From a virus: a stretch of 32,622 bases of DNA. A model generated the notes under the pieces. That model worked only from the letters and a program-made list of their open reading frames with translations. It made no database searches and had not been told where the DNA came from. The first letter of the stretch is position 1. Every line of letters starts with the position of its first letter. The DNA is taken from positions 1-32,622 of the IMG/VR virus record IMGVR_UViG_3300049617_000191; one strand, given 5' to 3'. The position numbers and the translations under genes are program-made. This document shows, piece by piece, positions 3,890 to 30,440 of this stretch.

Positions 3890-3892
3890 AAC

Positions 3893-4096: not shown

Positions 4097-4103
4097 GGGA
4101 ACT

Positions 4104-5237: not shown

Positions 5238-5241
5238 TCGC

Positions 5242-5481: not shown

Positions 5482-7304
5482 CCATCGCGGAGGTGAAGGC
5501 GAAGGTGTTGGCGAGCGCGGCGTACTGGCTGGCGGTTTACGGCCAAATCCTGAACGACCTGCGGCAGATCGTGACGCCGGAGCTGAACATTTATCAGATC
5601 CGGATGTGCCAGGCGGTGGAATGGGCGCGGGGGCAGGGCATCCCGGTGCGAATCATCGGCCTGAAACCGCGGCAGGTGGGCGGGACGACGATCGCGGCGG
5701 CGATCATCTACTGGCTGATGCGCAAGGTGCCGATGAACCTGGTGCTGATCGCGGACATCCTGGACCGGTCGAAGAAGATGTTCGTGATGTTCCGGCGGTT
5801 CGCGGAGAGCGACCGGTTTCCGTACTGGGGCTCGACGTTCACCTCGACGGAAAAGACGATCCAGTTCTCGAACAAGAGCCAGGGCGAGATGAAGACGGCG
5901 GAGAACCCGACCGGGTCGCGCGCGGACACGTTGCAGGCGCTGCTGCTCTCGGAGCTGCCGTTCTGGCCGCAGGACGGCGAGCGGCCGGCGGAGGCGACGC
6001 TGCTGGCGCTGGAGGGCTCGCTGGCGGATCACGCGGACACGATCGAGATCATTGAGAGCACGGCGTGCGGCGCCTACGGCGTGTTTCCGGACCGGTTCCG
6101 CGCGGCGCACTGGCCGGGCTACGACGATTATCACACGTTCTACGCGCAGACGCTGCCGCCGGGCAAGGAGGGCAACGCGTTCGTCCGGGTGTTCGCGGCG
6201 TGGTTCGAGTTCGAGAAGCATCGCAAGGTCGTGACGCCGGAGGAGGTGGCGTCGATGCGGGGCAACTTGTCGCCGCGGGAGAAGCGGGGCGTGGAGCTGT
6301 ACCACTGGACGTGGGAGCAGATCGCGTGGCGGCGCTGGGCGCTGGAGAACAAGTGCGGCGGGAAGGAATCGCAGTTCGACCAGGAGTTTCCCGAGGATCC
6401 GGTGAGTTGCTTCCTGGCCTCGGGCAACCCGCGGTTCAGCCAGGAGGGGATGACGTACCTCGAGACGGTGGCGCGGAACACCATCTGGCGCACCGGCGTG
6501 CTGACGGAGCCCCCGAAGAATCGCGGCGGGCGACCGACGTTCATCCCGACCGGCGAGAACGAGGCGTGGTTGCGCGTGCTGGAGGAGCCGAAGGTGGGGC
6601 TGCGCTACCTGATGGCGGGCGACGTCTCCAGCGATCGCGACATGTCGCCGCAGGGCAGCCAGGACCCGGACCGCGACAAGCACAGCTTCGGCGTGTTCCG
6701 CGAGGCTTACACGGACCAGCGCGGTATTTTCTATCGGCGCCGGCTGGTGGCGCGGCTGCAGTTCGACTGCCAGGACGGGCACCGGCTGCTGGCGTGGAAG
6801 CTGGCGCTGATCTCGGCCTACTACGGGAACTGCGTGGCGGCACCGGAGATGAACAATCATGGCCTGGCACTGGCGGTGAAGTTGAACGACCTGAAAGTGC
6901 CGCTGCTGAAGCGGAAGTGGATCGACCCGAAGACGGAGCGGGAGAAGGAGATCATCGGCTGGGAAACGAACCGCGTCACGCGGCCGCTGATCATCGAGGA
7001 GCTGGCGGAGGCGATTCGTTGCGTGACGGACGAGCAGCGGCCGGCGGGGCTGGAGGCGTTCTGCCCGCGCGCGGCGGGCGAGCTGGCGAGCTTCGTGAAG
7101 TATCGGGACGGGTCGGCGGCGGCCGCGGAGGGTTGCCACGATGACGACGTGATGATGCTGGCGATCGGGAATTACCTGTGCCCGAATGCGACGCTGTTCG
7201 AGCGCGAGGCGCCGGTGAACCTGGGGCGCGTGGACAGCTACGCGGATGTGACGGCGAATGGCAACCCGAGCGGGCAGCGGTCGAGCCCGGTGCCGCTGAG
7301 ATGA
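5478..7304 (+). CDS. Terminase large subunit (packaging ATPase/nuclease)
   Basis: A 608-residue protein starting at the ATG that overlaps the previous stop; an upstream in-frame start (5424) only adds shadow sequence. The ATPase domain shows a Walker A variant PRQVGGTT (residues 64-71) and a Walker B-like strand LLLSELPFW (155-163) with E159 as the likely catalytic glutamate. The RNase-H-like nuclease domain shows AGDVSSDRD with D382, an NNHG segment, and HDDDVMM with D555-D557, a plausible two-metal acidic set. It powers DNA translocation through the portal and cuts the concatemer. Length and motif order fit phage large terminases. Its stop overlaps the next ATG. Confidence 0.95.
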   Translation: MTIAEVKAKVLASAAYWLAVYGQILNDLRQIVTPELNIYQIRMCQAVEWARGQGIPVRIIGLKPRQVGGTTIAAAIIYWLMRKVPMNLVLIADILDRSKKMFVMFRRFAESDRFPYWGSTFTSTEKTIQFSNKSQGEMKTAENPTGSRADTLQALLLSELPFWPQDGERPAEATLLALEGSLADHADTIEIIESTACGAYGVFPDRFRAAHWPGYDDYHTFYAQTLPPGKEGNAFVRVFAAWFEFEKHRKVVTPEEVASMRGNLSPREKRGVELYHWTWEQIAWRRWALENKCGGKESQFDQEFPEDPVSCFLASGNPRFSQEGMTYLETVARNTIWRTGVLTEPPKNRGGRPTFIPTGENEAWLRVLEEPKVGLRYLMAGDVSSDRDMSPQGSQDPDRDKHSFGVFREAYTDQRGIFYRRRLVARLQFDCQDGHRLLAWKLALISAYYGNCVAAPEMNNHGLALAVKLNDLKVPLLKRKWIDPKTEREKEIIGWETNRVTRPLIIEELAEAIRCVTDEQRPAGLEAFCPRAAGELASFVKYRDGSAAAAEGCHDDDVMMLAIGNYLCPNATLFEREAPVNLGRVDSYADVTANGNPSGQRSSPVPLR

Positions 7305-8924: not shown

Positions 8925-8978
8925 TATTCATGTTGATTAAATTTGACAAGGACTTTGGTTTCTCGGCAGGATTCGCGC

Positions 8979-9776
8979 GTGATCCCTGCTCCCAGCGGCT
9001 ACTCAGGTTCGGGCGAAACTGATCCGTACACGCTGGGGCTTTTGCGCCGGCGGGCACTTTTTCCGCAGGTGGCGCCGATCCCGCAGCAGGCGAATCCGGC
9101 GATGATTCATTCGCAGCCGGGCATCGCGTCGGGCGTGGGTGCAGCCCAGTCCGCGACTCGGCAGGGCGGCATGGGCGGCGCGCCGGGCATCGCTCCCGGC
9201 CAGGGTTCGACAGGTCAGCCGCAGTCGGGCGTCCCGAATACGCCGCAGGCGGCGATGGCGGCGAATCAGGCCAATATGGGCGTGCGTGCGACCATGAACC
9301 AGGAGAATGCCGCCGCCTACGCGAATGACCCGTCGACCATCGCCAGCAATGCGCGGATCGCGGCGAAGAGCGCGGCCTACGAGCAGGGCAACCGGAACAC
9401 GGTGCAGCAGGCGACGGCGCTTGGCATGGACCCGAGTTCGAGTCAGGACCAGATCCAGCAGAAGCTGAACGGTCCGGTGCACTTGACCGATCCGACTGAT
9501 CACAGCACGCCTTCCGTGACGCAGCCGATGCCGGCGGGTCAACCGACGGCAGGTGCGGGACTGGCGGGCACACCCACGGTGGCCAAGCAGGTCGGCAATG
9601 CGGCGTTGCCGGCCGTCGCCCAGCAGGACGCCGCGCAGAAGACCGCGACAAACACCGCCTACGCGGCAGGTCGCGGCCCGGCTGATCCCTATGTGGTTGC
9701 CGCGCAGCTGAAACTCCGGCGCCTTCAACGGCCGGTGACGGCTCGACCGGACCTGTCCCAGGTTGGTTCGTACTGA
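8979..9776 (+). CDS. Ala/Gln-rich protein, probable virion or ejection protein
   Basis: GTG 8979 is chosen because AGGA lies seven bases upstream; an in-frame TTG at 8943 is an alternative. The 265-residue product is rich in Ala, Gln, Gly, Pro and Asn (GGMGGAPGIAPGQGSTGQ, ANQANMGVRATMNQENAAAY) with no clear globular core until a helical C-terminus (VVAAQLKLRRLQRP). It lies seven bases before the giant polyvalent gene and shares its compositional style, so it is probably co-expressed with it and may be packaged or help package it. No family recognised. Confidence 0.65.
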   Translation: MIPAPSGYSGSGETDPYTLGLLRRRALFPQVAPIPQQANPAMIHSQPGIASGVGAAQSATRQGGMGGAPGIAPGQGSTGQPQSGVPNTPQAAMAANQANMGVRATMNQENAAAYANDPSTIASNARIAAKSAAYEQGNRNTVQQATALGMDPSSSQDQIQQKLNGPVHLTDPTDHSTPSVTQPMPAGQPTAGAGLAGTPTVAKQVGNAALPAVAQQDAAQKTATNTAYAAGRGPADPYVVAAQLKLRRLQRPVTARPDLSQVGSY

Positions 9777-9783
9777 GCCGACC

Positions 9784-12700
9784 ATGTCTGCGTTCAGCTC
9801 TCCTTTTGACGTGGTGGCGGCGCGGCGGGCGCAACTTGCGCAAACCGCCGTTGACCCGACCGCGATCCCGGACACGCCCGATTTCAACACGGAGCGGGCC
9901 AGCGCGGACACGCAGGGCGAACTGAACGTCGACGCGACCGCGATGGGGCAGCAGCAGGAGCAGATCGACGCCGCGAAAGCAGCTGCCGCGCAGGCGAAAA
10001 TCGACCAGGCCAACGCGGCCGCGCAGGCGAAGGCTGACGCCGAGAACGCGAAGGCGAACGGCGTCATCACGCAGGCGCAGGCGGTGCCGGGCCCTTCGGG
10101 CGCGCCGATCATCCAGCAGGTGCCGCAGACGAACCCGGACAACACGGTGGCGTATCAGCGGAAGGACTTTGGCATCCAGAGCGTCAATGGCGACCCTTAT
10201 TCGGTGGCGCGGAATCAGTGGGGCGCGGACATCTACTCCGATCCCTACGATGCGGCGACGGCGAAGCTGGCGCTGAATAAATCCGGCGCGGTGATGGCGC
10301 AGCCGCTGGGCAAAGGCGCGAGCGCGCTGCCGCCGAAGGACGTGACGATGCAGGGAGTCTCGATCAGCGACCCATCGACCACGCAGGGTCCGGGGATCAA
10401 GTCCGACATTAGCGTCGCTCCCGATTCGGCGCTGAACAATCCTTCGATCCAGGGCGCGATTGACCAGCGTGAGCAGCAGGTGGTTGCGCAGGGCGCGAAG
10501 GAGGCCATCGCCGACGGTCCCGGCGCGGATGCCGACGACGCGCAGAGCGCGCTGGCCACCGCCCGGGCCGATCACGAGGCGTCGATCACCAAGCTGGGCG
10601 CGGCGCGCGATGCCGCCAAGGCGGCTCTCGGCACGGACGGCTATGATAAGGCGCAGGCCCAACTGAATCAGGCCCAGTCCGACGCCGTGGACAAGGCGAA
10701 CGCGCTCTCCGCCGCCGCCAAGGCCGCCGCGGCCGCGCAGGATACGGCGCGCCAGGCCAAGGCCGACCCGATCGGCTTCCTCCAAAAAAAAAACGGAGCA
10801 GCGCCCGCCGCGGATGACAGCGACGCGCAACCCCCTTCAGGCACCCCCACAACGCAGATAAGCGCAGGGTCTCCTCCCGCATCGTCCCCTGCCCAGCCTG
10901 CCCCTCCCTCCCAAGCTGGGGGGGTGCCTGATTCACCTTCGACCGATCCCACGGAAGCGGAGGCGCAGCGGGAGATGGCGGCTGCGGGGATCACTCCCGC
11001 GACAGCGCCAACTCCGAGCCCATCCGGTCCCATCGCCGGGGCAACTCCAACTGCACAAACGCCCGCGCCCGATGCGTGGACGAACTTCAAGTTCAGCGAC
11101 GACCCGGCCCTGGCGGCGCGGCAGAAATCGGCGATCGACGAATACCGTCAGGAACAGCCGGCGATCCAGGCCACGCTGCAGAGCGTCAACGCGATCGGCA
11201 CGGCGGCGGACGTCATGTCGAACCCGGCCAACGAGGTCGGGCCGGATGGCAAGCCGTTGCCACCACCCCCCCCGCCTCCGCCTCCCCCGCCGGCACCGGT
11301 CCCGGGCGGTACGATTCCGCCGAATCCGCTGGCCAGCCAGCCGACGGGCACGGTCCAGGACGCGATCGACCGGTTCGACAAAGCGACTGGGACCGGCGTG
11401 GGTCAGGCGATCACCAGCGTCGGACGCATCGCGCAGGACCTCGACCAGTCGAAGGCGAACCCGAGCTATTGGCTGAACAACTTGAGCGATTCGCTGCTGG
11501 GCACGCACACGCTGGAAAAGGAGGCGCAGGGCGACCAGCAGGTGATCGACAAGGGCAAGACGGTCGAGACGAACGCGCAGGACTACATCACCGACCCGAC
11601 GAAGGACAAATCGATCCTGGCGCGCGGGGCGAGCTTTGCGGGCAGCATGGCGCCGTTCATCGCAGCGGGTCCGGCTGCGCCGATCATGGGCGCGTTGTCG
11701 ATGAAGGAGTCGGGTCGAGAGGCGGCGAAGGACAAGGGCGCGAGCGATACCTCCGCCGAGGTTGCCTCCACCGCGATCGGAGTCGTGGGAGGCGGCGCGA
11801 TGGCGTTGCTGGGGCCGACCGCAGGCAAGCTGCTGAACCGCGTGGTGGGTGGCGCGGCGTCGGGCACGTTCTCGAAGCTGATCCTGACGCCGCTGCTGAA
11901 AGCACCGGGCGCAAGCGATACGCTGCCCAAGGCCGCCTACAACTTCGTGCTGGGCTCGGCGCAGAAAGGTTTCCGCACCGCGGCGGACTTGGCCGTCCTT
12001 AACGGCGCGACCAGCGCGATCTCGAACTGGGCGGGTGCGGCCTCCGGCGGCGATCCGTCGAAGCAGACGAACAGCGTGTCGGCTGCGTTCGACAATTTTA
12101 CCGACAACGTGCTGTTCGGGAGCTTCCTGCACGCGCCGGAGATGGCAGCGACGGAGGGCAATAACGCGCTGGTCAATCAGGCGGTGAAGACCGAGGGGGC
12201 CAAGGCGCAGTTCATCCGGCAGACGGCCAACACGTTCGGCGCGATCGATGCGAGTCCGAACCTGACGCCGGCGCAGCGAGCCGACGCCAAGGACCAGGCG
12301 CTGCATTTCCTCTCGCCCGACGTCAAGGCGACCGTGCTGGCGCACGTGAACAACGTGGCCGACGCACAGGCGCAGATGGGTCAGGTGATCACGGGCGCGC
12401 GGAAGACGCTGGCGGGATTGCAGCCCGCCGATGGCAACGTGGCGCGGATGTCGGACCAGGAGCTGCAATCGCGGCTGGCCGATCCGACGCAACTCGAGGA
12501 CCACCAGGCGACGCCGGAATATCTCGGCAAGCTTCAGGCCGAGGCCGCGCGGCGCCAGCAAATCCAGCAGGTGCAGGCTGACGCGCAGGGCAAACTTTCG
12601 GGCATTGCCGCCGACCTGGATGGCGCCACGTCAGCGACCCAGGAACTGGCGAAGCAGCCCGGCGGCACCGAGGCGTTGCGCGGGTTGAACGCCTACAACG

Positions 12701-15700
12701 CGACACTGGACCCGTCCGCACCGCGAGCCGATGCGCGCGACCTGCAGGCGGCGAGCGATCTTTCTCCGCTGGTCGATCCGACCAAGACGGTGCAGCCGGG
12801 CGCGGAGCATTACCTGCCGGTGACGCAGCAGATCGGCGCGCTGCCCGATCCTGACGCGCAGGCGGCGGTGACCGCGGCGTTCAAGGCGGTGAACGGCCGT
12901 TCACTGACCGATGACGAGCGCGCGCTGGTGGTGGGCGATCCGGCGAAGGGCGTTCCGCCGCAAGTGCTGGACTCCAACACGCAACAGCCGTTCGTGAAGC
13001 CGGGTCCGGCGAAAGGCAGCCTGATCCTCACCGACGCCGGCATCGCGCGCATCCGGCAACTGGTGCCGAGCGCGGCGGACGTGCTGCCGCGGAGCGAGCA
13101 AAGCCAGTTGGAAGCGCAGTCGGGTGGAAAGAATGCACGGAAAACCGGTCAGGATCGTGGCGTTTCCGACGCTCCGCCGAATGGCGCATTTGACACGGGT
13201 AGTTCGGGTATGACCCCAACTCCTCCTCCCCTGCCCAACCCGAAGTTCACCAACGTCACTGACGAAACCCTGGGCGTGCGCCGCGACAGCCTGGCCGCGG
13301 TTAAGGCCGCCGCCGAGCAACGCGGAGCGCGGTTTGCGCCGAGCGGCCAAGCCGCACTCGATGAGATCAACGCGGAGATCGCCCGTCGCCAAAGCGCCTC
13401 GGTCGCGACCACGCCGCGAGCGGCGCCTGGCGCCAAGGCCGGTGCCAAGGCCGGCGCCGAGATCGATTACAGCTATCCCGGCGCGGACGGAAAGCCGGTC
13501 GCGAGCCGCGGCGAGGTCACCGAAGTCCACCCCAACCACTATCGGCTCGTGGACGTCAACGACGGCACCGAGCGCGCCGTGCCCATTGCCCATGAAGTCG
13601 AGCAAACCGTTCCCGCTGCACCCGAAGCCGAAAAGCCTGCACCTGTGGCAGGAGAACCGTCGGCGGCTGGCAGCGGAGGGGATGCGGCGCCTGATCGCGC
13701 AGCTGGGGGAACTGAGGCGGAAGGAAGCCTTCCAGGCATCGCGCCTGAGTCGATCACGCCCGAGCTGAAAGGGACGGCTGATCTGGTGGGGCGCCTGTAC
13801 CAGAAGTTCAAGGCGGTGGCGGATCGGCTCGGCGTGAAGGAGTTCTCGGCGGCGACGCATGGGGGTGGGATCGGCTTGGCGGTTGATCCGAACGATCTGA
13901 CGAAGATCCAGCTCGATCTGCCCCGGCTTGCCAAGCAGCTCGCGAAGCTGTCGCCCGACGCGGCTGCGGCGCGCCTCGAGGAAGTGCTGGACGAGGAGCT
14001 GGAACATGTGGCGCTCGACAGGGCGGCCGGCGAAGGGGCGGACGGACACTCCCGCGAGCGCGCGGATGCGGCCTTCGCGCGGGTGTGGCTGAAGGCGAGC
14101 AAGGAGCAGCGGGCGACGGCGATCAAACTTTACGACCAGGGCGCGTCATCGTTCTTCCTGGATGGCGAACGGCCTTCGACCGGAGTGCTCGACACGGCCT
14201 CCGACGCGATCCGCGGCCGCGAGCTGATGCGGATGATCTCGCAGCTTCAACGCCGCGGGCGCACGAGCGAGGCGGTCGAGCTGATGACGCCGGAGACAAA
14301 GCCGCTGTTCCAGAAGCTCATCGACTATTTGCGGAAGGTGCTGCCGCTGAAAGACCCGGCGGCGCAACGGATGCTGGCGCGGGCGGAGCAACTGCGGAAC
14401 CTGCACCCGGACGATTCTGCCGACGGCGAGAATGCGTCGAAATCGCAGCGCGCCGACGTGGCGCTGGCGAACGGCGACAGTCTGCCGGCGAAATACGAAC
14501 TGGCGGAGCTGGGCGACCTGCAGGCGAGTCATCGCAACGGTGCGCCGAATCCCGATTACCCGGCGGGGCTGAACGAGCGGGACTACTCGCTCCCGCAGGA
14601 ACGGGAGAAGAACGAGGCGATGGCTTCGCAGTTCGACCCGCGGCGGGTGCTGACCGACAACCCGGACGCGGTCAATGGTCCACCGATCGTGGACCAGAAC
14701 GGGCTCGTGCTGGGCGGCAACCGGCGAACGATTGCCCTAGGCGATCCGCGCGCCTATGGGCGGTATCGCCCGGCGCTGGAGCAGCAGGCGTCCCGGTTCG
14801 GTGTCGATCCGGAGCAGGTCCGGTCGATGAAGCAGCCAGTGCTGGTGCGCCGCGTGCAGGCAACCCCTGAGCAGCGGCCCGAGCTGATCCGGCGCCTGAA
14901 CGAGACGCCAACGGGCGGGATTGATCGCGCGAATGATGCGGTCAGCGCCGGGAAGCAGCTTTCGCCCGACCTGGTGCGGACGGTGGGCGACCTGTTCCAG
15001 AGCGATCCCGACAAGACTCCTTTGCAGCACCTGACCGACGGCGACACGAAATCGCTGGCGCAGGGTCTTCTGGACGCCGGGGCGATTCGTCCGAACGACC
15101 GCGAGAAGTACGTCGCGCCAAACGGCAACCTGACCCCGGAGGGCGCGCGGTTCGCGCGGACGGTGCTCCTGGGCGGCGTAGTGCCGGACGCGCAACTGTT
15201 GCGGTCGGTGGAAGGCACGCCGACCGAAACGAAGCTGCTGAACGGGCTGAGCCCGCTTTACACGGCGCGGTCCCGCGGCGTCGACCTGACTCCTCTCACG
15301 GAAGCGGTGCGGCTGGAGGCCGACCGGCAGCGCAACGGAATCAAGACGGTGCAGGATCACCAGGCGCAGGGCGCGCTGGATGGGATCGGCGCGGAGGGAT
15401 CGGAGCCCGCGAAGAACGTGCAGACGATCCTCGGCAACATTTCGGCGCGGGACGCGCGGCGGGCGTTGACCAGCCTGCAAGGCATCGTGGCGCCGCTGGA
15501 GCCGGGTCAGACCGGGCTCTTTGGCGAGACGAACCGGAAATCGATCGGCGACATTTCTCCGGGTGAGGCGTTGCAGGTGGTGCGGACGTCCAAGTCCATC
15601 GGCAAGGCGGCCCGCGGTCTGGGCGAAGCGGTGGCGGGCGCGGAGGTGCACCTGGATCAGACGCTGACGCCCGACAACGAGGCGGTGAAGCGCGGCATCC

Positions 15701-18700
15701 TGCCGCCCGGTACCTACAGCCAGGCGAAGTTTCACGAGGCGCTGATCAGCCACTTTCTTTCCAAAGCCGAACCGGTGACCGGGCGTAAGCCGGAGGTCGT
15801 GTTGCTCGGCGGCGGCGGTGGCGCGGGCAAGACGTCGATCCTGAAGAAACTGCAGGCGGAGGGAAAGATTCGCAGCTCGGGGCATGTGGAGGTCAACGCC
15901 GACGAATTCAAGACGCTGCTGCCGGAGTACGAGGCGAAGGTCAAGGCTGGCGATCGTGCAGCCGCACGCGACGTCCACCACGAATCGGCGTTCCTGGCGC
16001 GAGAACTGGCTGCCCGTGCGATGCAGGACAAACGGGATTTGATCATCGACGGGACGATGAAGTCGAAGGAAAGCGGGCTGCAGCTGATTCGTCGGATGAA
16101 GGACGCCGGGTACAAGATCGATTTTGTGGGCGTCACAGCGGACCCGGCTGAGGCAATCCGGCGGGCAGAGGAGCGTGGCGACAAGACTGGGAGGTTCGTT
16201 CCAACCGAGGATTTAGCTCGAGCCCACAGCGGTTTCAACGAGGCGTTGCCCTCATACCTCCGGGCGTTGCAGGACGGCGGCCACACCGCGCGTGTTTTCG
16301 ACAACAGCGGGGCGACGCCCCAGGAATTGCCCGTTGAGGAAATCCGAAATGAAACGTATACTCCCATTAGTGAAAGAGCGCGCTACACCCACCCAGCCGA
16401 ATCCCCCCGAGGATCGGAAGTGGCCGGCGTTCTACACTCCGGCGACGATCGCGGAGCACCTGGCGGCGGAGAAGAAGGCGGGCAAGAAGCTGATCCCGCT
16501 GACCGACGAGGAGCATCACTTGATGATGACCAGCGACTTCGACCCGGACCCGGGCGTCCCCTACGGGGTCCTGGACTAGACTCTACCGCGCACGGCGCGG
16601 CGATCCCCGACCTGTTCGAGCGCCCGGCGACGGACAAACCGCAGACCCGGCCCGATGAGGCGCCGCTGACGCGCACGCAGGCGCTGAACGTCTATCGCAA
16701 GCTGAGCCCGTTGCGGGCGGATGGGACCATCAAGCCCGCGCAATCGGCGGCACTGGAACGTGCTGAGAAGGCGCTGGGCCAGTCGTTCATTCCCGGCACG
16801 GAGCAAGCGGGCGGCCAGAAGCCTTCACGCGAGGAGGCCGCGAGTGAAGAAAACAGCCCGAAATTGCAATCGAGGCCCGGCGATGTGCAGCAATCGATGT
16901 TCGACACGGGGCGCGACCAGGACCGGGGCCAGCAACTGCTGTTCGCGGCCGCGGTGCAAAAGCCGCTGGCGAAGTACATGGATGCGCTGGAGCAACGGCA
17001 GGCAGCGTTGCCGGAGCCGGTGGAAAACCGGCTGAACTTCGCGGATGAGTACCGAACCGACTTCGGCACGCTCCCTTCCCCGGCGCTGGAGGCGCTGGCG
17101 CGGCCGTTCGCGCGGGATGCCGGAGGCACCGGCGAAAACCCGGAGGCGACGCCCCATGGACGGTTCCATGCGCATCTTGATCTGGCCGACCGAATGGCGC
17201 GCAAGTTTCACAACGTCCCGGGGGTCGAGCCGGACGACGTGCGACAGGAGGCGCGGCTGGCGCTCTACAATGCTGCGCAGGACCACGATCCCGCGGTGGG
17301 CACACCGTTCCGCAACCAGGCGGCGCACTACATCCGCAATTCACTGATCGACCGGTATCGGTCGCAGTCGCGACGGGCGGTCGAGCAGCCGACGCTGGAC
17401 GAACCCGTGGGACGCGACCGCGACGGGCTGCAGACGACGGGCAAGGATCTGGTGCGGGATGGCTCGCCGGTGCCTGGCGAAGCCACGGCCCAGGCTGATT
17501 CGCACGACATCCTGCGGTCGGCCGTGTCGAGTCTGCCATCGCACCTGCACGACGTGATGAACGATCTTCTGGCGGGCAAGAGCCAGGCGGAGATCGCCCG
17601 GGATCGGGGCGTCAGCGCCCAGCGGATCAACGCGCAGGCCAAGGTCGGGCTGGACAAGCTGCGCGAGCATTTCACGAAGCAGGGCATCGGCGCGCGGGAT
17701 CTGATCGGTGGCGCGGAGGTCCACACGCCCGACGAGAGCGAATTGCCGGGCGCGGAGTTGATCAAGCCGGAGGACGTGACGATCGATCATGATGGATCGA
17801 CTTGGACCGAAGCGAAGGACAACTACGATCCTGACGACGCGGCGACGTGGCCGTTCGCTAACGCGGACGAGATCGACACCTACAAGCAGGCGGTCGATGG
17901 CTTTGACAAGGACGACCCGGACACGTGGGACGATTTCCTGCCGGCGGAACTGGCCGGCGAGCACGGCAACATCACCGACGCGGCCGATGAGGCTGACAGC
18001 CTGGCTAGCACGCTGGAGGCGCAGGAGGGAATTTCGCCCGCGGTGCGCGAGGCGGCGCGGAAGCTGGAGCAGTCGATCCGCGACCAGGTGAAGGACACGG
18101 TGCTGCCGGTGGCGGAGCGGAACTACAACTACGCGAAGCGGGTGGTGGACGATGCGCAGGCCAAGGCTGACGCCTACTTCGCGGACTCCAATGATCCCGA
18201 CGTGCAAATGTCGCGCCGGGACATCGATGAACCCGACACCTGGCCGAAGGAGTGGAGCGACGAGTACGATGCGGCCCAGAAGCAGGCTGGCCTTGCGGAC
18301 GATGATTACGGCCCCGCGCGCAAGATGATCAACGACGTCTTCGATGCGAAGCACGGGCCGGAGATCGAGGCGGCGAAGGAGCGCGTGGCCGCGAAGAACA
18401 CCGAAGCATCGAAAGCATCGGGAGAATCGCAGGGCACGTTGTACGGCGCAGCCGTCGACGATCCGCCCACCATTGGCAAACGCCTGTTCGGCGACAACGC
18501 GTTCCTGCGGGATGACGTGGCGCCGACGGTGCAGGCCATTGCGGAGACGTTCACCTCGGCGGGCGATTCGCTGATGAAGACCTACGCTCCGGCGCTGCGC
18601 GGGCTCGAGGCGAAGCACACCGCGAACATCCTGCGACAGAACCTGACCGAGATCGCGCGCAACCGGGATCACGCGGAGGCGGCACTGCGCAAGGCGCGGA

Positions 18701-20994
18701 CGTTCTTTGAGGGCCGGCCGGTGCAGGACAACCTCGACTTTATTCACGCGATCGAGACGAACGGCGGGATTAAGGATCCGGCGTTGAACGAGATCGCGCA
18801 GACGATGCGGCGGATCAATAACGCGCGGCGGGATGCCGTGCGGGCGCTGCCGACGGGCGTCTTCAAGAGCTTCATCGAGAATTATTTCCCGCACATCTGG
18901 AAGGGCGGCGAGGTCGAGGACAGCGAGGCGGCGCGCAAGTTCCTGAAGAAGATCGAGAGCTCGCGTGCGTTCCTCAAGCACCGGACGATTCCGACGATCC
19001 AGGACGGCATCGCGCGTGGTCTGACACCGGTATCGTTCAACCCGGTGGACCTGTTCCTGATGAGGTGGGGCCAGATGGACCGGTTCGTGGCCGGACAAAA
19101 GACGCTCGGGATGCTGAAGGACATGGGCATCGCGCAGCATTTCCCGAACGAGGAGGACGCGCCGCTCGGCTGGACGCGGATCGACAAGCGCATCGGGCTT
19201 TCGGAGGAAGAAGTGCCGGTGAAGACCGAGGGGGACCAGATTCCGGGTCTTGAACAGCCGCCCAAGACCGTGCGCAAAAAGGTGCCGTACTACGCACCGA
19301 CGCAGGCGGCACAGGTGCTCAACAACCATCTCTCGCCCGGGCTGCGCGACAAGGCGTGGTATCGCGGCATCGTCGGAGCGGGCAACGCGCTGAATCAGGC
19401 GCAGCTTGGGTTCTCGGCATTCCACCTCGGCTTTACCAGCGTGGACGCGGCGACGTCGAAGCTGGCCTACGGGCTGGAAGAGCTGGCGGCGGGACGACCC
19501 GCCCACGCGCTGAAAGCCTTCGCGCAGGCACCGCTGCAACTCGGCAGCGTGTTTCACCTGCTCGCCGGCCGCATCTCGCCGTCGCTGGACACGGTGGGCG
19601 GCAAGATGCACCGGGAATGGATGAATCCGGGCAGCCAGTCGCCGGAGATTCAGCGGCTGGTTGAGTCGGTGATCAAGGCCGGCGGCCGCGTGCAGCAGGA
19701 CCCGCTCTACAACAACCGGGCGTGGGAAGGCTTCAAAGGCGCGATGCGCCGCGGAAACTACCTGGGCGGGGCGCTGCGCGCGCCGTTCGCCTTGGTGGAG
19801 CGGGCCTCGGCGCCGATCATGGAGTACGTCGTACCGCGCCAGAAGCTATCGGTGTTCGCGGACATGGCGCGCATGGGCATGGAACGGTTGGGCCCGGGCG
19901 CGAGCGATGAGCAGGTGCGTGACGTCATGGCGAAGGCGTGGGACTCGGTGGACAACCGGATGGGGCAGGTCGTCTACGACAATCTTTTCTGGAACAAGGT
20001 CGCAAAGGACCTGGCGCTGGCATCGGTGCGATCGGTCGGCTGGAACCTCGGCACGTTCCGCGAGCTGGGCGGAGGTGCGGTGGATTGGGGCAAAGCGGGC
20101 GTGGCGGCGGCGATGATGAAGCGGCCGGAATTCACGCACCGGATGGCCTACACGATGGCGCTGCCGCTGCTGACGGGCACGATCGGCGCGCTGGTGCAGT
20201 ACCTCTACACCGGGCAGGCGCCACAGGAACCGCGCGACTACTTTTTCCCGAAGACGGGTGAGAAAGACGAGACGGGCCACAACGTGCGGCTGGCGCTGCC
20301 GAGTTACATGAAGGACGTCTACGGCTTTCAGCACGACCCGGTGCACACGCTCACGAGCAAGATTCACCCGATGTTCTCGGCGGTGGCGCAGATGCTCCAG
20401 AACAAGGATTACTACGGGACGGAGATTTCGCACCCGGGCGATCCGCTCTGGCAGCGAATCCTGGACGAGGGGGGATTCGCCGCGAAGCAGTTCCTGCCAT
20501 TCTCGATCACCGGCCAGCAGAAGATGCAGAAGTCGGGGCAGTCGCTGGCGAAACAACTGCTGCCGTTCGTGGGCGTCACGCCGGCGCCGGGCTACGTGGA
20601 CCAGAGCCCGGCCGAGGAGATGGCGGCGAAGTTCGCGGCGGATCGCGCACCGACCGGCTCGCAGACCAAGCAGGCGTTCGACCAGCGCCAGGCGCGCAAC
20701 CTCCTGCTGAACCAGATTTCCAAGGGCGACAATTCCGGCATCCCGGCGGCGGTGAAGGCGGGAACGGTGAAGCCGGGCGAGATCGCTGGCTTGCTGCGGG
20801 AAGCTCGGCAGTCGCCGCTGGAGCGACGGTTCACGCACCTGACGGCAGAGGAAGGCGCGAAGGTGTTCGAGGTCGCCACGCCGACGGAGAAGGCGATCCT
20901 GAAGCCGATGCTGCTGAGAAAAATTCAGGTGGCGGCTCAGCGCGGAACACTGCCCGACAAGCGCCTGCTGAAAGAAATTGCATCCACTAATTGA
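9784..20994 (+). CDS. Giant polyvalent protein: ParB/DdrB-like, zeta-toxin-like and sigma-70-like domains
   Basis: One uninterrupted 3736-residue frame from ATG 9784; an in-frame TTG at 9763 is less likely. Parts in order: Ala-rich coiled coils (53-95, 249-329); a Pro-rich linker with 11 consecutive prolines (493-503); Gly/Ala-rich hydrophobic stretches (616-640, 658-701); a helical domain with EELEH (1404-1408), possibly a degenerate metallopeptidase; a ParB/DdrB-like domain (about 1556-1920, GGNRRT at 1644-1649); a zeta-toxin-like kinase (Walker A GGGGGAGKTS 2009-2018, D2040, D2089); sigma-70 region 2-like (2461-2531, PDDVRQEARLALYNAAQ, IRNSLIDRYR) and region 4-like (2573-2631, SQAEIARDRGVSAQRI) segments; then a long helical C-terminus with FIENYFPHIWK and hydrophobic segments (3186-3226, 3456-3478). 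Polyvalent proteins of phages are known to be delivered into the host with DNA; delivery here is inferred. Two linkers look like coding sequence in another frame, so it may be a fusion of several genes. Confidence 0.88.
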   Translation: MSAFSSPFDVVAARRAQLAQTAVDPTAIPDTPDFNTERASADTQGELNVDATAMGQQQEQIDAAKAAAAQAKIDQANAAAQAKADAENAKANGVITQAQAVPGPSGAPIIQQVPQTNPDNTVAYQRKDFGIQSVNGDPYSVARNQWGADIYSDPYDAATAKLALNKSGAVMAQPLGKGASALPPKDVTMQGVSISDPSTTQGPGIKSDISVAPDSALNNPSIQGAIDQREQQVVAQGAKEAIADGPGADADDAQSALATARADHEASITKLGAARDAAKAALGTDGYDKAQAQLNQAQSDAVDKANALSAAAKAAAAAQDTARQAKADPIGFLQKKNGAAPAADDSDAQPPSGTPTTQISAGSPPASSPAQPAPPSQAGGVPDSPSTDPTEAEAQREMAAAGITPATAPTPSPSGPIAGATPTAQTPAPDAWTNFKFSDDPALAARQKSAIDEYRQEQPAIQATLQSVNAIGTAADVMSNPANEVGPDGKPLPPPPPPPPPPPAPVPGGTIPPNPLASQPTGTVQDAIDRFDKATGTGVGQAITSVGRIAQDLDQSKANPSYWLNNLSDSLLGTHTLEKEAQGDQQVIDKGKTVETNAQDYITDPTKDKSILARGASFAGSMAPFIAAGPAAPIMGALSMKESGREAAKDKGASDTSAEVASTAIGVVGGGAMALLGPTAGKLLNRVVGGAASGTFSKLILTPLLKAPGASDTLPKAAYNFVLGSAQKGFRTAADLAVLNGATSAISNWAGAASGGDPSKQTNSVSAAFDNFTDNVLFGSFLHAPEMAATEGNNALVNQAVKTEGAKAQFIRQTANTFGAIDASPNLTPAQRADAKDQALHFLSPDVKATVLAHVNNVADAQAQMGQVITGARKTLAGLQPADGNVARMSDQELQSRLADPTQLEDHQATPEYLGKLQAEAARRQQIQQVQADAQGKLSGIAADLDGATSATQELAKQPGGTEALRGLNAYNATLDPSAPRADARDLQAASDLSPLVDPTKTVQPGAEHYLPVTQQIGALPDPDAQAAVTAAFKAVNGRSLTDDERALVVGDPAKGVPPQVLDSNTQQPFVKPGPAKGSLILTDAGIARIRQLVPSAADVLPRSEQSQLEAQSGGKNARKTGQDRGVSDAPPNGAFDTGSSGMTPTPPPLPNPKFTNVTDETLGVRRDSLAAVKAAAEQRGARFAPSGQAALDEINAEIARRQSASVATTPRAAPGAKAGAKAGAEIDYSYPGADGKPVASRGEVTEVHPNHYRLVDVNDGTERAVPIAHEVEQTVPAAPEAEKPAPVAGEPSAAGSGGDAAPDRAAGGTEAEGSLPGIAPESITPELKGTADLVGRLYQKFKAVADRLGVKEFSAATHGGGIGLAVDPNDLTKIQLDLPRLAKQLAKLSPDAAAARLEEVLDEELEHVALDRAAGEGADGHSRERADAAFARVWLKASKEQRATAIKLYDQGASSFFLDGERPSTGVLDTASDAIRGRELMRMISQLQRRGRTSEAVELMTPETKPLFQKLIDYLRKVLPLKDPAAQRMLARAEQLRNLHPDDSADGENASKSQRADVALANGDSLPAKYELAELGDLQASHRNGAPNPDYPAGLNERDYSLPQEREKNEAMASQFDPRRVLTDNPDAVNGPPIVDQNGLVLGGNRRTIALGDPRAYGRYRPALEQQASRFGVDPEQVRSMKQPVLVRRVQATPEQRPELIRRLNETPTGGIDRANDAVSAGKQLSPDLVRTVGDLFQSDPDKTPLQHLTDGDTKSLAQGLLDAGAIRPNDREKYVAPNGNLTPEGARFARTVLLGGVVPDAQLLRSVEGTPTETKLLNGLSPLYTARSRGVDLTPLTEAVRLEADRQRNGIKTVQDHQAQGALDGIGAEGSEPAKNVQTILGNISARDARRALTSLQGIVAPLEPGQTGLFGETNRKSIGDISPGEALQVVRTSKSIGKAARGLGEAVAGAEVHLDQTLTPDNEAVKRGILPPGTYSQAKFHEALISHFLSKAEPVTGRKPEVVLLGGGGGAGKTSILKKLQAEGKIRSSGHVEVNADEFKTLLPEYEAKVKAGDRAAARDVHHESAFLARELAARAMQDKRDLIIDGTMKSKESGLQLIRRMKDAGYKIDFVGVTADPAEAIRRAEERGDKTGRFVPTEDLARAHSGFNEALPSYLRALQDGGHTARVFDNSGATPQELPVEEIRNETYTPISERARYTHPAESPRGSEVAGVLHSGDDRGAPGGGEEGGQEADPADRRGASLDDDQRLRPGPGRPLRGPGLDSTAHGAAIPDLFERPATDKPQTRPDEAPLTRTQALNVYRKLSPLRADGTIKPAQSAALERAEKALGQSFIPGTEQAGGQKPSREEAASEENSPKLQSRPGDVQQSMFDTGRDQDRGQQLLFAAAVQKPLAKYMDALEQRQAALPEPVENRLNFADEYRTDFGTLPSPALEALARPFARDAGGTGENPEATPHGRFHAHLDLADRMARKFHNVPGVEPDDVRQEARLALYNAAQDHDPAVGTPFRNQAAHYIRNSLIDRYRSQSRRAVEQPTLDEPVGRDRDGLQTTGKDLVRDGSPVPGEATAQADSHDILRSAVSSLPSHLHDVMNDLLAGKSQAEIARDRGVSAQRINAQAKVGLDKLREHFTKQGIGARDLIGGAEVHTPDESELPGAELIKPEDVTIDHDGSTWTEAKDNYDPDDAATWPFANADEIDTYKQAVDGFDKDDPDTWDDFLPAELAGEHGNITDAADEADSLASTLEAQEGISPAVREAARKLEQSIRDQVKDTVLPVAERNYNYAKRVVDDAQAKADAYFADSNDPDVQMSRRDIDEPDTWPKEWSDEYDAAQKQAGLADDDYGPARKMINDVFDAKHGPEIEAAKERVAAKNTEASKASGESQGTLYGAAVDDPPTIGKRLFGDNAFLRDDVAPTVQAIAETFTSAGDSLMKTYAPALRGLEAKHTANILRQNLTEIARNRDHAEAALRKARTFFEGRPVQDNLDFIHAIETNGGIKDPALNEIAQTMRRINNARRDAVRALPTGVFKSFIENYFPHIWKGGEVEDSEAARKFLKKIESSRAFLKHRTIPTIQDGIARGLTPVSFNPVDLFLMRWGQMDRFVAGQKTLGMLKDMGIAQHFPNEEDAPLGWTRIDKRIGLSEEEVPVKTEGDQIPGLEQPPKTVRKKVPYYAPTQAAQVLNNHLSPGLRDKAWYRGIVGAGNALNQAQLGFSAFHLGFTSVDAATSKLAYGLEELAAGRPAHALKAFAQAPLQLGSVFHLLAGRISPSLDTVGGKMHREWMNPGSQSPEIQRLVESVIKAGGRVQQDPLYNNRAWEGFKGAMRRGNYLGGALRAPFALVERASAPIMEYVVPRQKLSVFADMARMGMERLGPGASDEQVRDVMAKAWDSVDNRMGQVVYDNLFWNKVAKDLALASVRSVGWNLGTFRELGGGAVDWGKAGVAAAMMKRPEFTHRMAYTMALPLLTGTIGALVQYLYTGQAPQEPRDYFFPKTGEKDETGHNVRLALPSYMKDVYGFQHDPVHTLTSKIHPMFSAVAQMLQNKDYYGTEISHPGDPLWQRILDEGGFAAKQFLPFSITGQQKMQKSGQSLAKQLLPFVGVTPAPGYVDQSPAEEMAAKFAADRAPTGSQTKQAFDQRQARNLLLNQISKGDNSGIPAAVKAGTVKPGEIAGLLREARQSPLERRFTHLTAEEGAKVFEVATPTEKAILKPMLLRKIQVAAQRGTLPDKRLLKEIASTN
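10784..10793 (+). other. A10 homopolymer in the giant gene
   Basis: Ten consecutive A residues read as CAA AAA AAA AAC (residues 334-337) in an otherwise GC-rich gene. Slippage by -1 would end at TGA 10815-10817 and by +1 at TAA 10859-10861, giving short products of about 340-360 residues. It may be a transcriptional or ribosomal slippage site, or simply a tolerated linker tract. Confidence 0.5.
10892..10912 (-). other. Potential G-quadruplex motif
   Basis: The plus strand has four C-tracts of three or four bases spaced by loops of 6, 1 and 1 bases, so the minus strand matches the canonical G3+N1-7 pattern. It lies in the Pro-rich linker of the giant gene, about 100 bases after the A10 run. 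It may be only a side effect of proline codons. Confidence 0.35.
13592..13768 (+). CDS. Candidate nested small ORF at a giant-protein linker (58 aa)
   Basis: In a frame different from the giant gene, ATG 13592 opens a 58-residue ORF with protein-like helical content (LWQENRRRLAAEGMRRLIAQ, GELRRKEAF). Its codons end mostly in G or C like real genes here. The giant frame over the same bases loses this bias and reads as a low-complexity Ala/Glu/Pro/Gly linker. No clear ribosome site precedes it, so it could be a remnant of a former separate gene rather than an expressed one. Confidence 0.35.
   Translation: MKSSKPFPLHPKPKSLHLWQENRRRLAAEGMRRLIAQLGELRRKEAFQASRLSRSRPS
16349..16579 (+). CDS. Nested gene inside the giant ORF, just after the zeta-toxin domain (76 aa)
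   Basis: ATG 16349 is preceded by GAGGA (16336-16340) with an 8-base spacer, one of the best ribosome sites in the window. The 76-residue product (starts MKRILPLVKERATP, contains WPAFYTPATIAEHLAAEKKAGKKLIPL and HLMMTSDFDPDPGVPYGV) has balanced composition, and nearly all codons from residue 20 on end in G or C. The giant frame over these bases is a Gly/Asp/Arg-rich low-complexity run (residues 2189-2265) without that bias. Coding signal therefore switches frame here and returns to the giant frame right after the TAG. It could be a partner of the kinase domain, a formerly separate gene between two fused genes, or the mark of a sequence error. No family recognised. Confidence 0.6.
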   Translation: MKRILPLVKERATPTQPNPPEDRKWPAFYTPATIAEHLAAEKKAGKKLIPLTDEEHHLMMTSDFDPDPGVPYGVLD

Positions 20995-21014: not shown

Positions 21015-23306
21015 ATGGCATTAGTCGTCTCCACTCCGCAGAAGCCAGACTATCCTGACGGCGGGGAGAACACGCATGATGCGCCGCCGTTGCCGGCGGG
21101 GTCGAGTCCAAAGCCGACGCTGAAGCCGCCGGGATCGAGCCTGGCGATGACTGAGGACCAGTTGACCACGCTGGTCGAGTACGTCTGCAACAAGGTCGAC
21201 GAGCTGAAGAAGGAGAAGCACGACCATGGCTGGGACCGCGAGCGGGACGACTACATCGACCAGCACGAGGACGAATTCAAGTTCCGCGAAAAGGAAGAGG
21301 GCTCGATCTTCCGCGACTCGAACCTGAGTTTCAACCAGTCGCGGAGGAACACGCTGCCGATCGTGGCGCGACTGACGAAAGATTATCTCGCGGTCGATGG
21401 GTTTTACGCGATCGAGCCGACGCGCCTGACCGACCAGAGCCTGGCGCCGCGCATCCAGAATTATTCGAAGTACAAGCTGGGCCGGTCGAACCTGCGGGCC
21501 TGCCTGCTCGAGGCCATCGACCGGGCGGCGGTGGTCGGCGAGCGCGTCGTGAAGATCACGCACGCGGAGCGGTCCTCGTTCTACAAGGAGACCGACATCG
21601 TGCTGGTGGACGAGACGGGCTCGCCGGTGCGGACCAGCAAGGGCGATGTCATCTACTCGACGGACGAATGGGTCGCGCCGCAGACGGAGCAGGACGACAT
21701 GCAGAAGCCGCTGACCTTCGTGCAGGGCATCGTGGCGGCGATTTTCCCGGCGAAGGGACCGCTGGTGCTGAAGAAGGACCCGACGGTGGCCAAGCCGGAC
21801 AAAGAAAAGTACGTGAAGTGCACCTACCCGATGAAGCACGTGGCTTACGCCGGGCCGGACTGCTCGGGGGTTCACCACAAGGATTTCCTGTGCGGGTTGC
21901 GGGAGAAGGACGTGCAGACGGCGCCGATCATCGCGCATCTCTACGACCTGGACGTGACCGCGGCGATCGAACGGTACGTGATTCCCTACCAGCCGGCCGA
22001 CCTGGACGACCCGATGGAGAAGGCGTTCATGCTGGACCTGATGTCGCGGGTGAACGCGCTAAAGAATGAGGACAACACGGCTAAGTCGGCCACGCTCCGG
22101 CCGCACCGGGAAGATCACGAGATGGCGGAGCCGGCCCAGGACGATTTCCACGCGCTGACGCAGCTGGCCGAGGCGTACCTGTCGCTCGACGTGGATGGGG
22201 ACGGGATCATCGAGGAGATTTGCATCACGGTCGACCTGAAGAACCGGTTCGCGTACGACTTCGATTACACGCCGAACGTGGTCCACCCCTCCCTCGGGCG
22301 CCCGTTCCGGGTGATTCGCACCCTGCCGTTGGTGGACCGCTGGTACGGGATTTCCGAGTACAAGGTTAACCGACACAAGCAGTGGTTTATCGACTGGTCG
22401 TTGAACCGGCTGGTCTACGACGCCTCGCTGGCCGGGAAAATCCGCGGCTACAACCCGAAGGCGGCGGCGGGCTGGGACCGCAATCCACCCGTCCCGGGCG
22501 ACGTCTGGCACAAGTTCGAGGACCCGGAGCTTTTCGAGAAAGGCGTCGTCACCATCGAGATGCCGACGCTGGACGACAACACGTTCCAGTTGATGCAGAC
22601 GATGATGCAGGCGAGCCAGGCGGAGCGGGGCAACCTGGCGCCAGGCGGCGATACGATCTCGAACCTGCCGTCATCGAAGCTAAAGTATGGGATTGAGGCG
22701 ATCCAGCGCTCCGGCGACGAGCTCTATGCCCTCACGGCGATTCTGATCAAGGAACCGCTGATGTCCGTGGTCGACGCGGCCATGAAGACGATGCTGGCCC
22801 ACATGGACGAGGTGGAGGAGTACGAGTTCACGGAGGGGGATCACACGCTGTCGGACACCATGAACCGGAGCGAGATCGAGGACTTGAAGTTCAACGTCTC
22901 GCTGGACCTGACGCTGGCGCGCGGCGACCAGATCGTGGAGCAGAACGAGGCGGCGATGGACAAGGTGGTGGCCTACCTGCAACAGCCCGCTTTCATGCAG
23001 GCGGTCACGCGGCCCTTTCTGTTGCGCTACTTGCGGGCGATGGAGATTCCCGATCCGGACAAGGCGCTGCCCACGCCCACGCCGGAGGCCATTGCGGCGT
23101 CATTGCAGCCTCCCCAGCCGCCGCAGGGGCCCGGTGGGCCACCGCAACCCGGCGGCGCTCCCGGCGCGCCCATGGCGCCTCCTCCGCCCGGACCGACGCC
23201 AAGTCAGATGCCGACCCAGCCCGCGGCCAACCCCCCACTCCCTTCCGCGGCGGCTGATGCCACGGCAGGCCCGGGCACGCCAGGCCCTGCGCCCAAGCTT
23301 GTATGA
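21015..23306 (+). CDS. Portal protein
   Basis: A 763-residue protein from ATG 21015 after a short AT-rich gap. After a disordered N-terminus it has the features of large podovirus-type portals: WDRERDDYIDQHEDEFKFRE, SIFRDSNLSFNQSRRNTLPIVARLTKDYL, an acidic DGDGIIEEICITVD strand pair, RWYGISEYKVNRHKQWFIDW, and helices toward the C-terminus (ALTAILIKEPLMSVVDAAM). The last 80 residues are a Pro/Gly-rich tail. The portal forms the dodecameric ring through which the terminase packages DNA and the genome exits. Size is close to the large portals of N4-like phages, and the downstream capsid gene is N4gp56-type. Assignment is by overall pattern, size and context. Confidence 0.82.
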   Translation: MALVVSTPQKPDYPDGGENTHDAPPLPAGSSPKPTLKPPGSSLAMTEDQLTTLVEYVCNKVDELKKEKHDHGWDRERDDYIDQHEDEFKFREKEEGSIFRDSNLSFNQSRRNTLPIVARLTKDYLAVDGFYAIEPTRLTDQSLAPRIQNYSKYKLGRSNLRACLLEAIDRAAVVGERVVKITHAERSSFYKETDIVLVDETGSPVRTSKGDVIYSTDEWVAPQTEQDDMQKPLTFVQGIVAAIFPAKGPLVLKKDPTVAKPDKEKYVKCTYPMKHVAYAGPDCSGVHHKDFLCGLREKDVQTAPIIAHLYDLDVTAAIERYVIPYQPADLDDPMEKAFMLDLMSRVNALKNEDNTAKSATLRPHREDHEMAEPAQDDFHALTQLAEAYLSLDVDGDGIIEEICITVDLKNRFAYDFDYTPNVVHPSLGRPFRVIRTLPLVDRWYGISEYKVNRHKQWFIDWSLNRLVYDASLAGKIRGYNPKAAAGWDRNPPVPGDVWHKFEDPELFEKGVVTIEMPTLDDNTFQLMQTMMQASQAERGNLAPGGDTISNLPSSKLKYGIEAIQRSGDELYALTAILIKEPLMSVVDAAMKTMLAHMDEVEEYEFTEGDHTLSDTMNRSEIEDLKFNVSLDLTLARGDQIVEQNEAAMDKVVAYLQQPAFMQAVTRPFLLRYLRAMEIPDPDKALPTPTPEAIAASLQPPQPPQGPGGPPQPGGAPGAPMAPPPPGPTPSQMPTQPAANPPLPSAAADATAGPGTPGPAPKLV

Positions 23307-27684: not shown

Positions 27685-27707
27685 CCATTCATTGTCCACA
27701 TTATTAG

Positions 27708-28904: not shown

Positions 28905-30440
28905 ATGGCAGTCGATAACATGCTGGTCAACGACTATGCAACGTTGACCACGAATTACCCTGGCGCCGAGCAGCAGAACTGGTCCCAGGTCGCGCTTGTC
29001 ACCGCGAAGCGCAACAACATTTTCGCGGACATGGAGGGCCCCGAGCTCTCCAACAAACCCGTCGTTCGCAAGGACGACTTCAAGAAGAGCCGCGGTGACA
29101 AGATCACCTTCACGGTCATCGCCCGCCTCGGCGGCGCCGGCGTGATCGGCGACCAGATCCTGACGGGTCAGGAAGAGAAGATGCAGGCCGGCACGTTCGG
29201 CATGCAGATCGACTTCAAGCGTCACGCGGTCGGCCTGCAGGAGAAGCACGACCTGATGTCGGCCGTGCCCTTCGGGATGTACACCGCGGCGCTGCTCGGC
29301 GAGCACGCCGGCTGGCGCCAGGAGAACGACCTGATGATGACCTTCAAGCTGAACGGTCTTCAGAACGGTCTGAACCTGATCCGCGCGAACAACAAGGGAT
29401 CCCGCGAGGCGCTGCGGTCGGCGGACGTGGTCCAGCCCGGCACCATCTACACGGCGGCCGAGCTCGGCAAGAGCCGGATGATGAAGACGGCCAACGTAGC
29501 GAAAGCCAAGGCCGGCTATCAGATCCCGCGCTTCATCTTCGTCAGCCCGCACCCGGCGCTGACGGCGTTCAAGCAGACCAGCCAGTACCTGGAAGCCGTG
29601 AGCTATGCGGCGGAGCGGGGCGACAAGAATCCCCTCTTCACCGGCGAGTACGCGGACTGGGACGGTCACATCATCTATCCGCACTACACGGAAGACGACG
29701 ACAGCAACGGCCCGGTCGGGTCGGCCTTCGCGCCCAAGGCGCTGCTGGGCAATCCGATCACGGCGAGCTCGGCCTCGTTCAGCATCACCGGCGGCGGCGA
29801 TGCGGAAGGTGCGGCGGTGGTTCCTGCCCCGCTCTACTTCCAGTTCTTCTCGAACTACGACTACCAGTTCGTGCAGGGCCAGACGCCGAATCCGCAGACC
29901 GGCAACCGGTACGTGCTGATCTACAACCTGCAGGATTCCAGCACGGGCGCTGGTGATGCGGGCAAGTGGGGCTTCTACTGCTACCAGACCAACAACGGCA
30001 ACGTGCTCACCACGGCGGCTTACCAGGCCAGCAATCCCGACTCCCTGGCGGGTGCGGGCGGTCCGAGCGGTGGTCGCCTGGGGCCGACCAACCACAGCGG
30101 CAGCAGCACGGATCACACCGTGGTCGGCAACGTCACGTGGAACGGCGCGGTCAACACGCAGAACCACGGGTCCGGCTCGATCGTCCTCGAGACGAACAGC
30201 TACGGCGTGCCGATCGCGCAGAGCCTGTTGCTCGGCGGCGAGTCGATCATGCGCGGCTGGGGCAAGGAGCCGATCAAGCAGATCAAGAACATGCAGGACT
30301 ACGAGGCCGATCAGGGCACCGGGTACCGCGCATGTTACGGCCAGACCCCCTTCAAGGATACGAAGGGGAACATCCGGCGCTTCGTGCTGGTGGAACACGC
30401 CATCAGCTACGCCGGCCTGAATCTGCCGACCGTCTCGTAA
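28905..30440 (+). CDS. Major capsid protein, N4gp56 family
   Basis: A 511-residue protein with a clear ribosome site (GGAAGGA at 28889-28895, nine bases before ATG). The N-terminal half carries the N4gp56 pattern: FKKSRGDKITFTVIARLGGAGVIGD, then MQIDFKRHAVGLQEKHDLMS and a helix with the LLGEHAGWRQENDLMM segment. The end (IKQIKNMQDYEADQGTGYRACYGQTPF, RRFVLVEHAISY) also fits the family. N4 gp56 is about 400 residues; the extra length lies roughly at residues 280-430, a Gly/Asn/Thr-rich stretch with beta character (YYDYQFVQGQ-like strands, GPTNHSGSSTDHTVVGNVTWNG), probably a surface insertion. It forms the HK97-type icosahedral shell. Confidence 0.92.
   Translation: MAVDNMLVNDYATLTTNYPGAEQQNWSQVALVTAKRNNIFADMEGPELSNKPVVRKDDFKKSRGDKITFTVIARLGGAGVIGDQILTGQEEKMQAGTFGMQIDFKRHAVGLQEKHDLMSAVPFGMYTAALLGEHAGWRQENDLMMTFKLNGLQNGLNLIRANNKGSREALRSADVVQPGTIYTAAELGKSRMMKTANVAKAKAGYQIPRFIFVSPHPALTAFKQTSQYLEAVSYAAERGDKNPLFTGEYADWDGHIIYPHYTEDDDSNGPVGSAFAPKALLGNPITASSASFSITGGGDAEGAAVVPAPLYFQFFSNYDYQFVQGQTPNPQTGNRYVLIYNLQDSSTGAGDAGKWGFYCYQTNNGNVLTTAAYQASNPDSLAGAGGPSGGRLGPTNHSGSSTDHTVVGNVTWNGAVNTQNHGSGSIVLETNSYGVPIAQSLLLGGESIMRGWGKEPIKQIKNMQDYEADQGTGYRACYGQTPFKDTKGNIRRFVLVEHAISYAGLNLPTVS

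Follow-up and report, generated by a model that had tools for sequence, protein, structure and literature searches.

The window, by which we mean the whole stretch of viral DNA that was analysed, is a linear IMG/VR record of 32,622 bases (65% G+C) in which one giant gene sits between the gene for the terminase large subunit (TerL) and that for the portal protein; the features that we could assign are collected in Table 1. The giant protein is 3,743 amino acids long if translation starts at the TTG at 9763, and 3,736 amino acids long if it starts at the ATG at 9784. When the latter is taken as residue 1, residues 2461–2531 fall at positions 17164–17376 and residues 2573–2631 at 17500–17676; these are the places to which an earlier reading of the window, made without database searches (hereafter the sequence-only reading), had assigned regions 2 and 4 of a sigma-70 factor, and its coordinates and residue numbers are right.

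Table 1. Features of the window and the evidence for each (L058 and L115 are loci with related giant genes; positions are those of the window).
Feature	Coordinates	Strand	Basis
Terminase large subunit	5424..7304	+	phrog_24361 'terminase', E=4e-11
Giant polyvalent-protein gene	9763..20994	+	Stop-free frame; G+C by codon position steady
N-terminal region, without known family	9994..13647	+	BLASTP: L115 33%, L058 partial 27–29%
ddrB-like ParB superfamily domain	14470..14856	+	Pfam PF18763, 69 bits vs cut-off 27.6
Zeta-toxin-like kinase domain	15775..16251	+	Pfam PF06414, E=8.5e-36, 123.7 bits
Block conserved in L115 (sigma unit and ~180 aa before it)	16618..17703	+	33%, 388 columns, E=7e-33
Sigma-70 region 2	17164..17376	+	PF04542 above cut-off
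Linker joining regions 2 and 4	17377..17499	+	AlphaFold2 pLDDT < 50, model residues 79–115
Sigma-70 region 4 (helix-turn-helix)	17500..17676	+	PHROG_351 and TIGR02937 coverage; model helices; PF04545 alone weak
C-terminal family-defining domain, ~830 aa, motif ENYFPHIW, LPD38-like by fold	18502..20990	+	Viral and genome relatives; AlphaFold2; BFVD
Portal protein, SU10 type	21015..23306	+	PF23899, 36.3 bits vs cut-off 30
Major capsid protein	28905..30440	+	PF13252 Phage_capsid_3, 63 bits vs cut-off 23

The surroundings of the giant gene can be followed into some of its relatives. Homologues of the window's TerL precede the giant gene in L058 (52% identical) and, directly, in L060 (31%), where a portal homologue also stands immediately downstream. 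The direct order of TerL, giant gene and portal was seen in L060 and L151 only, and the portal homologues are too divergent for general synteny statistics. A scan of 20 relatives with the capsid model PF13252 gave no match, and the control was silent too. Judged from its portal and capsid families, the phage is probably short-tailed. Far upstream, at 448–1965, the window encodes a phosphoadenosine phosphosulfate reductase or DndC-like protein (PHROG_12882, E=4e-150) that scores 123.5 bits with the DndC model TIGR03183, under the cut-off of that model, and that is possibly related to DNA phosphorothioation.

The N-terminal third of the giant protein contains an E-E-x-x-H motif, which reads LDEELEHVALDRA in the window, MGEEAHHLFVERT in L058 and MQEEYLHAATFDL in L115. 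By eye the motif recalls the zincin-like peptidase of polyvalent proteins, minus the first H of HExxH, and this region of the three giants may be a putative self-processing domain.

A two-domain sigma unit inside the giant protein

Profile searches in Pfam, PHROGs and NCBIfam bear out the presence of sigma-70 region 2 and region 4 segments within the giant protein. Specifically, the Pfam model of region 2 (Sigma70_r2, PF04542) scores 35.2 bits (E=1.1e-8) on a segment of 299 amino acids and 38.1 bits on the record, in both cases above the curated cut-off of 24. Region 4 taken alone (PF04545) reaches 15.9 bits in the window, under its cut-off of 24.1; its homology is found within full-length matches to the family. 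PHROG_351, 'RNA polymerase sigma factor', spans regions 2 and 4 (E=5.3e-17), and the NCBIfam model of the sigma-70 family, TIGR02937, scores 51.3 bits against a cut-off of 42.9 and is covered from position 8 to position 164 of its 165.

Likewise, an AlphaFold2 model of the segment, built with four related sequences, consists of two helical domains (model residues 2–78 and 109–177, with pLDDT blocks of 75–91 and 79–90, respectively) linked by a disordered stretch at model residues 79–115, a predicted arrangement that is the two-domain layout of the ECF-type sigma factors. The best 50 PDB matches listed by Foldseek are all sigma factors or sigma-containing complexes, and the leading ones, with a probability of 1.00, are sigma32, sigmaS, sigmaA and the ECF factor SigL. 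The TM-scores of these matches are 0.3–0.4 and the rmsd is large, which we attribute to the two domains being freely placed relative to each other. The sigma fold that the sequence-only reading had left to structure prediction is present in the model, and the spacing that it had called that of a minimal sigma factor agrees with the profiles, with the fold match and with a collinear relative described below. It is nearly certain that positions 17164–17673 encode a complete two-domain ECF-like sigma factor (region 2, linker and region 4), and it is the single sigma factor seen in the window.

A family of giants that share a C-terminal domain

The C-terminal ~830 amino acids of the giant protein define a family with at least 224 relatives among viral contigs, to which genome contigs add 20 loci, in material that is metagenomic except for a few of the genome loci. 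The AlphaFold2 model of this domain has a pLDDT of 80 and a pTM of 0.77, and in BFVD its fold matches viral proteins that bear the name 'Large polyvalent protein associated domain', with E down to 2e-13; there is also a weak fold match to the 'internal virion protein' of Vibrio phage VP2 (E=6e-4), and a fold search of the PDB gave nothing significant. The LPD38 sequence model is marginal (E=0.047, in 2 of 30 members, the window not among them). By tblastn the domain has no relatives in 50,697 phage records, and it shows no sequence homology to SU10 gp24. The sole named isolate among the genome loci is Trichlorobacter thiogenes (L118, NZ_FUWR01000010.1), in which a giant gene carries the same C-terminal domain at 34% identity; no sigma module was found at that locus, and the gene offers an experimental handle on whether the family is packaged. 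The domain itself, with its 224 viral relatives, is a handle for finding further injected effectors.

It is informative to examine what the members carry upstream of this domain. Among 25 of them we find LPD1 (7), LPD5 (6), inorganic pyrophosphatase (5) and GGDEF (4) domains, ddrB-ParB, ART-PolyVal, RadC and SNF2 helicase modules (3 each), MuF_C and LPD23 (2 each), and also Kinase-PolyVal and PBECR1. This set is the polyvalent-protein repertoire of Iyer et al. 2017 (PMC5512222), where such phage proteins are described as likely capsid-packaged and DNA-binding domains are frequent in them. The label of giant polyvalent protein, given in the sequence-only reading, is supported by these domains of the family, and the window's own protein holds ddrB-ParB, zeta toxin and sigma within one 3,743-aa chain, in a phage context with terminase and portal present. 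The likeness to the surveyed class is close, in that we are again dealing with a very large phage protein of many domains, encoded close to terminase and portal and containing ddrB-ParB, from a family whose members carry LPD, ART-PolyVal, MuF_C, PBECR1 and SNF2-methylase modules. However, the word 'sigma' is absent from the text of the survey, whose transcription-related members contain an RNA polymerase or enzymes that modify one, and no sigma factor (PMC5512222). The window adds to this established class a polyvalent protein that has a promoter-specificity subunit among its modules. One relative of 4,240 amino acids (L024:2-12718(+)) combines an SNF2 helicase with an Eco57I-type methylase, and near its N-terminus there is a weak Acb1-like (anti-CBASS) match (E=0.007, under cut-off).

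An in-frame sigma is present in three of the 122 non-redundant members (the window, L115 and L056), 101 of the 122 having at least 400 amino acids upstream of the domain in the same frame; the search covered the loci of the fetched relatives and, for most, the complete records from which these loci come. L115 encodes a protein of 4,188 amino acids, on a contig of a Verrucomicrobia MAG, that is collinear with the window's giant (BLASTP identity of 33% in the N-terminal region and 42% in the C-terminal domain) and has a sigma unit, 39% identical, at the same place in the protein. The L115 sigma exceeds the Pfam cut-offs for both regions (40.5 bits for region 2; 26.4 bits vs 25.7 for Sigma70_r4_2). 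Furthermore, the two units are identical at the core-binding-type residues DV.QEA and at the helix-turn-helix residues AEIA.D.GVS.QR, and the identity over the region 4 helix-turn-helix, ~41% by our own count, is no lower than that over region 2. Between the shared blocks the window has the ddrB-ParB domain and the zeta-toxin kinase, whereas L115 has neither by Pfam. The third giant, L056, is distant (its C-terminal domain is 29–30% identical to the window's) and in it regions 2 and 3 come in succession immediately before the C-terminal domain; region 4 was not detectable in it. The sigma adjoins the C-terminal domain in all three.

In a tree of the C-terminal domain, the window falls in a clade with L115 and L058 (support 0.999), from which L056 is far removed. 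No sigma was found in L058, the window's nearest relative in this tree, and hence the module is dispensable in the lineage; we infer that the module was gained two or more times, or once and then lost many times. The sigma-bearing relatives were recovered through the C-terminal domain only. When viral contigs were scanned with the sigma segment by itself, or with alignments of the window and L115 sigmas, no relatives came back, and tblastn of the sigma block against the 50,697 phage records gave weak matches only, those looked at being a separate sigma gene (RHEph10, 211 aa) and an unannotated frame of 250 aa. A wHTH-like match in L042 was rejected, as it is not a sigma.

Stand-alone sigma genes also occur among the relatives. 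In two of them one lies between a TerS-like gene and TerL (L130:2623-3285(-) and L131:4620-5165(-)), and in a third one lies beside TerS and TerL (L132:1757-2407(+)); the terminase names in L130, L131 and L132 were read from the sequences, those of TerL in L130 and L131 also by homology. L132 contains a second ECF-like sigma at 7309-7869 and, in our own reading, a NusG-like gene at 2894-3439.

Possible roles of the sigma unit

Phages need their first genes to be read by a host enzyme that is tuned to host promoters. The known phage solutions are host-like early promoters, injected RNA polymerases (as in N4 and P23-45) and injected modifiers of the polymerase (as in T4 Alt). An injected sigma, if true, would be a further and cheaper solution to this first transcription: some phages would package a promoter-specificity factor instead of an RNA polymerase, and their early promoters would be freed from dependence on the host sigma.

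We give about even weight, for and against, to the proposal that the unit is a functional ECF-like sigma module in an ejected polyvalent protein and assembles with the host's core RNA polymerase into a holoenzyme for phage promoters. The giant protein would be produced late, within the terminase–portal operon, would be packaged into the capsid via its conserved C-terminal domain, and would enter the next host along with the DNA. Once inside, the sigma module, whether still part of the whole chain or freed by proteolysis, would use region 2 to bind the host's core RNA polymerase, which regions 2 and 4 together would steer to phage promoters on the incoming genome; we infer these to be early rather than late ones. 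We favor this because the sigma unit exceeds curated cut-offs, has the sigma fold and stands in the same place in L115; because L056 has regions 2 and 3 directly before the same C-terminal domain; because members carry the domain set of phage proteins that are likely capsid-packaged (PMC5512222); because the giant gene lies between TerL and portal, in L060 as well; and because precedents exist in the injected polymerases of N4 and P23-45 and in the phiEco32-group sigma that redirects host core polymerase. Against it we set the absence of a sigma from L058, the separate sigma genes of several relatives, the weak score of region 4 alone in the window, the lack of relatives of the C-terminal domain among phage records, and the lack of sequence homology between that domain and either N4 virion RNA polymerase or SU10 gp24. 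Co-delivery with the DNA and early redirection of host RNA polymerase, which the sequence-only reading had put forward, would fit both the position of the gene and the polyvalent class. To the wider proposition that an ejected sigma, fused to a delivery domain, starts early transcription without the host sigma and was gained repeatedly, each time at one and the same docking site beside that domain, we give somewhat less than an even chance.

It is worth considering how the proposed arrangement compares with these precedents. The N4-type virion RNA polymerase (Schitoviridae) is injected transcription machinery (PMC12633501), and it is likewise a giant of ~3,500 amino acids whose phage has a head-gene cluster; a start of early transcription on injected DNA is also what we propose here. 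It differs in that the sigma module of the window's giant would depend on core polymerase from the host, and no RNA polymerase domain was found in this giant by Pfam, PHROGs or NCBIfam. The view of the unit as a counterpart of the N4 enzyme, raised in the sequence-only reading, is no more than an analogy; no sequence homology links the C-terminal domain to N4 gp50, the virion RNA polymerase. In P23-45 a virion RNA polymerase is fused to the tape-measure protein (PMC10770324), so that in both cases transcription machinery is fused to a giant late structural protein, although there a whole RNA polymerase is attached to the tape measure of a long-tailed phage, and here the polyvalent protein of a phage with an SU10-type portal contains a promoter-specificity subunit. 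The sigma factors phiEco32 gp36 and 7-11 gp47 redirect host core RNA polymerase and are encoded by podoviruses of the SU10 group (PMC8948821); in contrast to the unit described here, they are small, separate, unfused proteins that the phage makes in the course of infection to serve its middle and late genes. T4 Alt, an injected ADP-ribosyltransferase that acts on RNA polymerase (PMC5512222), shares with our proposal an injected protein that alters the use of the host polymerase, but it does so by enzymatic modification rather than as a promoter-specificity factor. The nearest published thing that we found to an injected sigma is the stand-alone sigma of SU10, of which one peptide was detected in a particle preparation made without gradient purification (PMC4281155), an observation that does not by itself show packaging. 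No description of an injected sigma of the present kind was found in the open-licence papers searched, just as none had been known to the sequence-only reading.

The strongest rival to an ejected, early-acting sigma is a role in late gene expression, which we regard as unlikely. Here the module would drive the late structural genes in the producing cell, whether within the nascent giant or once released from it as a fragment, and its place in a packaged protein would be a by-product of the fusion of a neighbouring late sigma gene. Such a role is possible because a separate sigma gene is present in several relatives and lies, in two of these, between TerS and TerL; in addition, those sigmas that have been characterised in phiEco32-like podoviruses act at middle and late promoters (PMC8948821), and the window has only the one sigma. 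However, in three divergent giants the sigma adjoins the packaging-type C-terminal domain and is unjoined to TerS or TerL, a sigma made only within a late structural protein would be ill suited to switch on its own operon, and the polyvalent neighbours, zeta toxin and ddrB-ParB, are of effector types. A sigma that is tied into such a chain, in the company of effector domains, seems better suited to act after delivery.

It is slightly less probable again that the injected module serves host shut-off, competing with the housekeeping sigma for core RNA polymerase without initiating at phage promoters. The strongest profile match is to region 2, the main core-binding part, and L056 retains regions 2 and 3 with no region 4 seen, as this explanation would have it; yet the helix-turn-helix is conserved between the window and L115, which suggests selection for DNA recognition, and the state of L056 is no sign of inactivity because phiEco32 gp36 initiates transcription without region-4 homology (PMC8948821). 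Improbable, in our view, is a sigma-derived scaffold or DNA-binding piece that is inactive with RNA polymerase and was kept for packaging or for anchoring the DNA. DNA-binding domains are indeed often found in polyvalent proteins (PMC5512222), but region 2 retains its core-binding motif, and the layout of region 2, linker and region 4 is intact over nearly the whole of TIGR02937. Finally, an assembly chimera or chance frame that fused a sigma gene to an unrelated gene has a negligible probability, for although the window is one metagenomic contig and 65% G+C promotes long spurious frames, G+C by codon position is even along the whole giant frame, the sigma segment and its junctions included, and a chimera is rejected, being refuted in practice by the collinear L115, with its sequence conserved on both flanks of the sigma unit.

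With regard to the promoters that an ejected sigma would serve, a sigma-70 promoter scan of window positions 1–10000 gave no excess over shuffles. The 8-mer ACATTATT, which was not found in L058 or L115, occurs exactly twice in the window (8921–8928 and 27698–27705), each copy in an A+T-rich gap that precedes a block of structural genes on the plus strand. Its expected count is 0.08, and two copies were reached in 0 of 100 shuffles, for an 8-mer that was picked after looking; it is possibly a phage promoter element.
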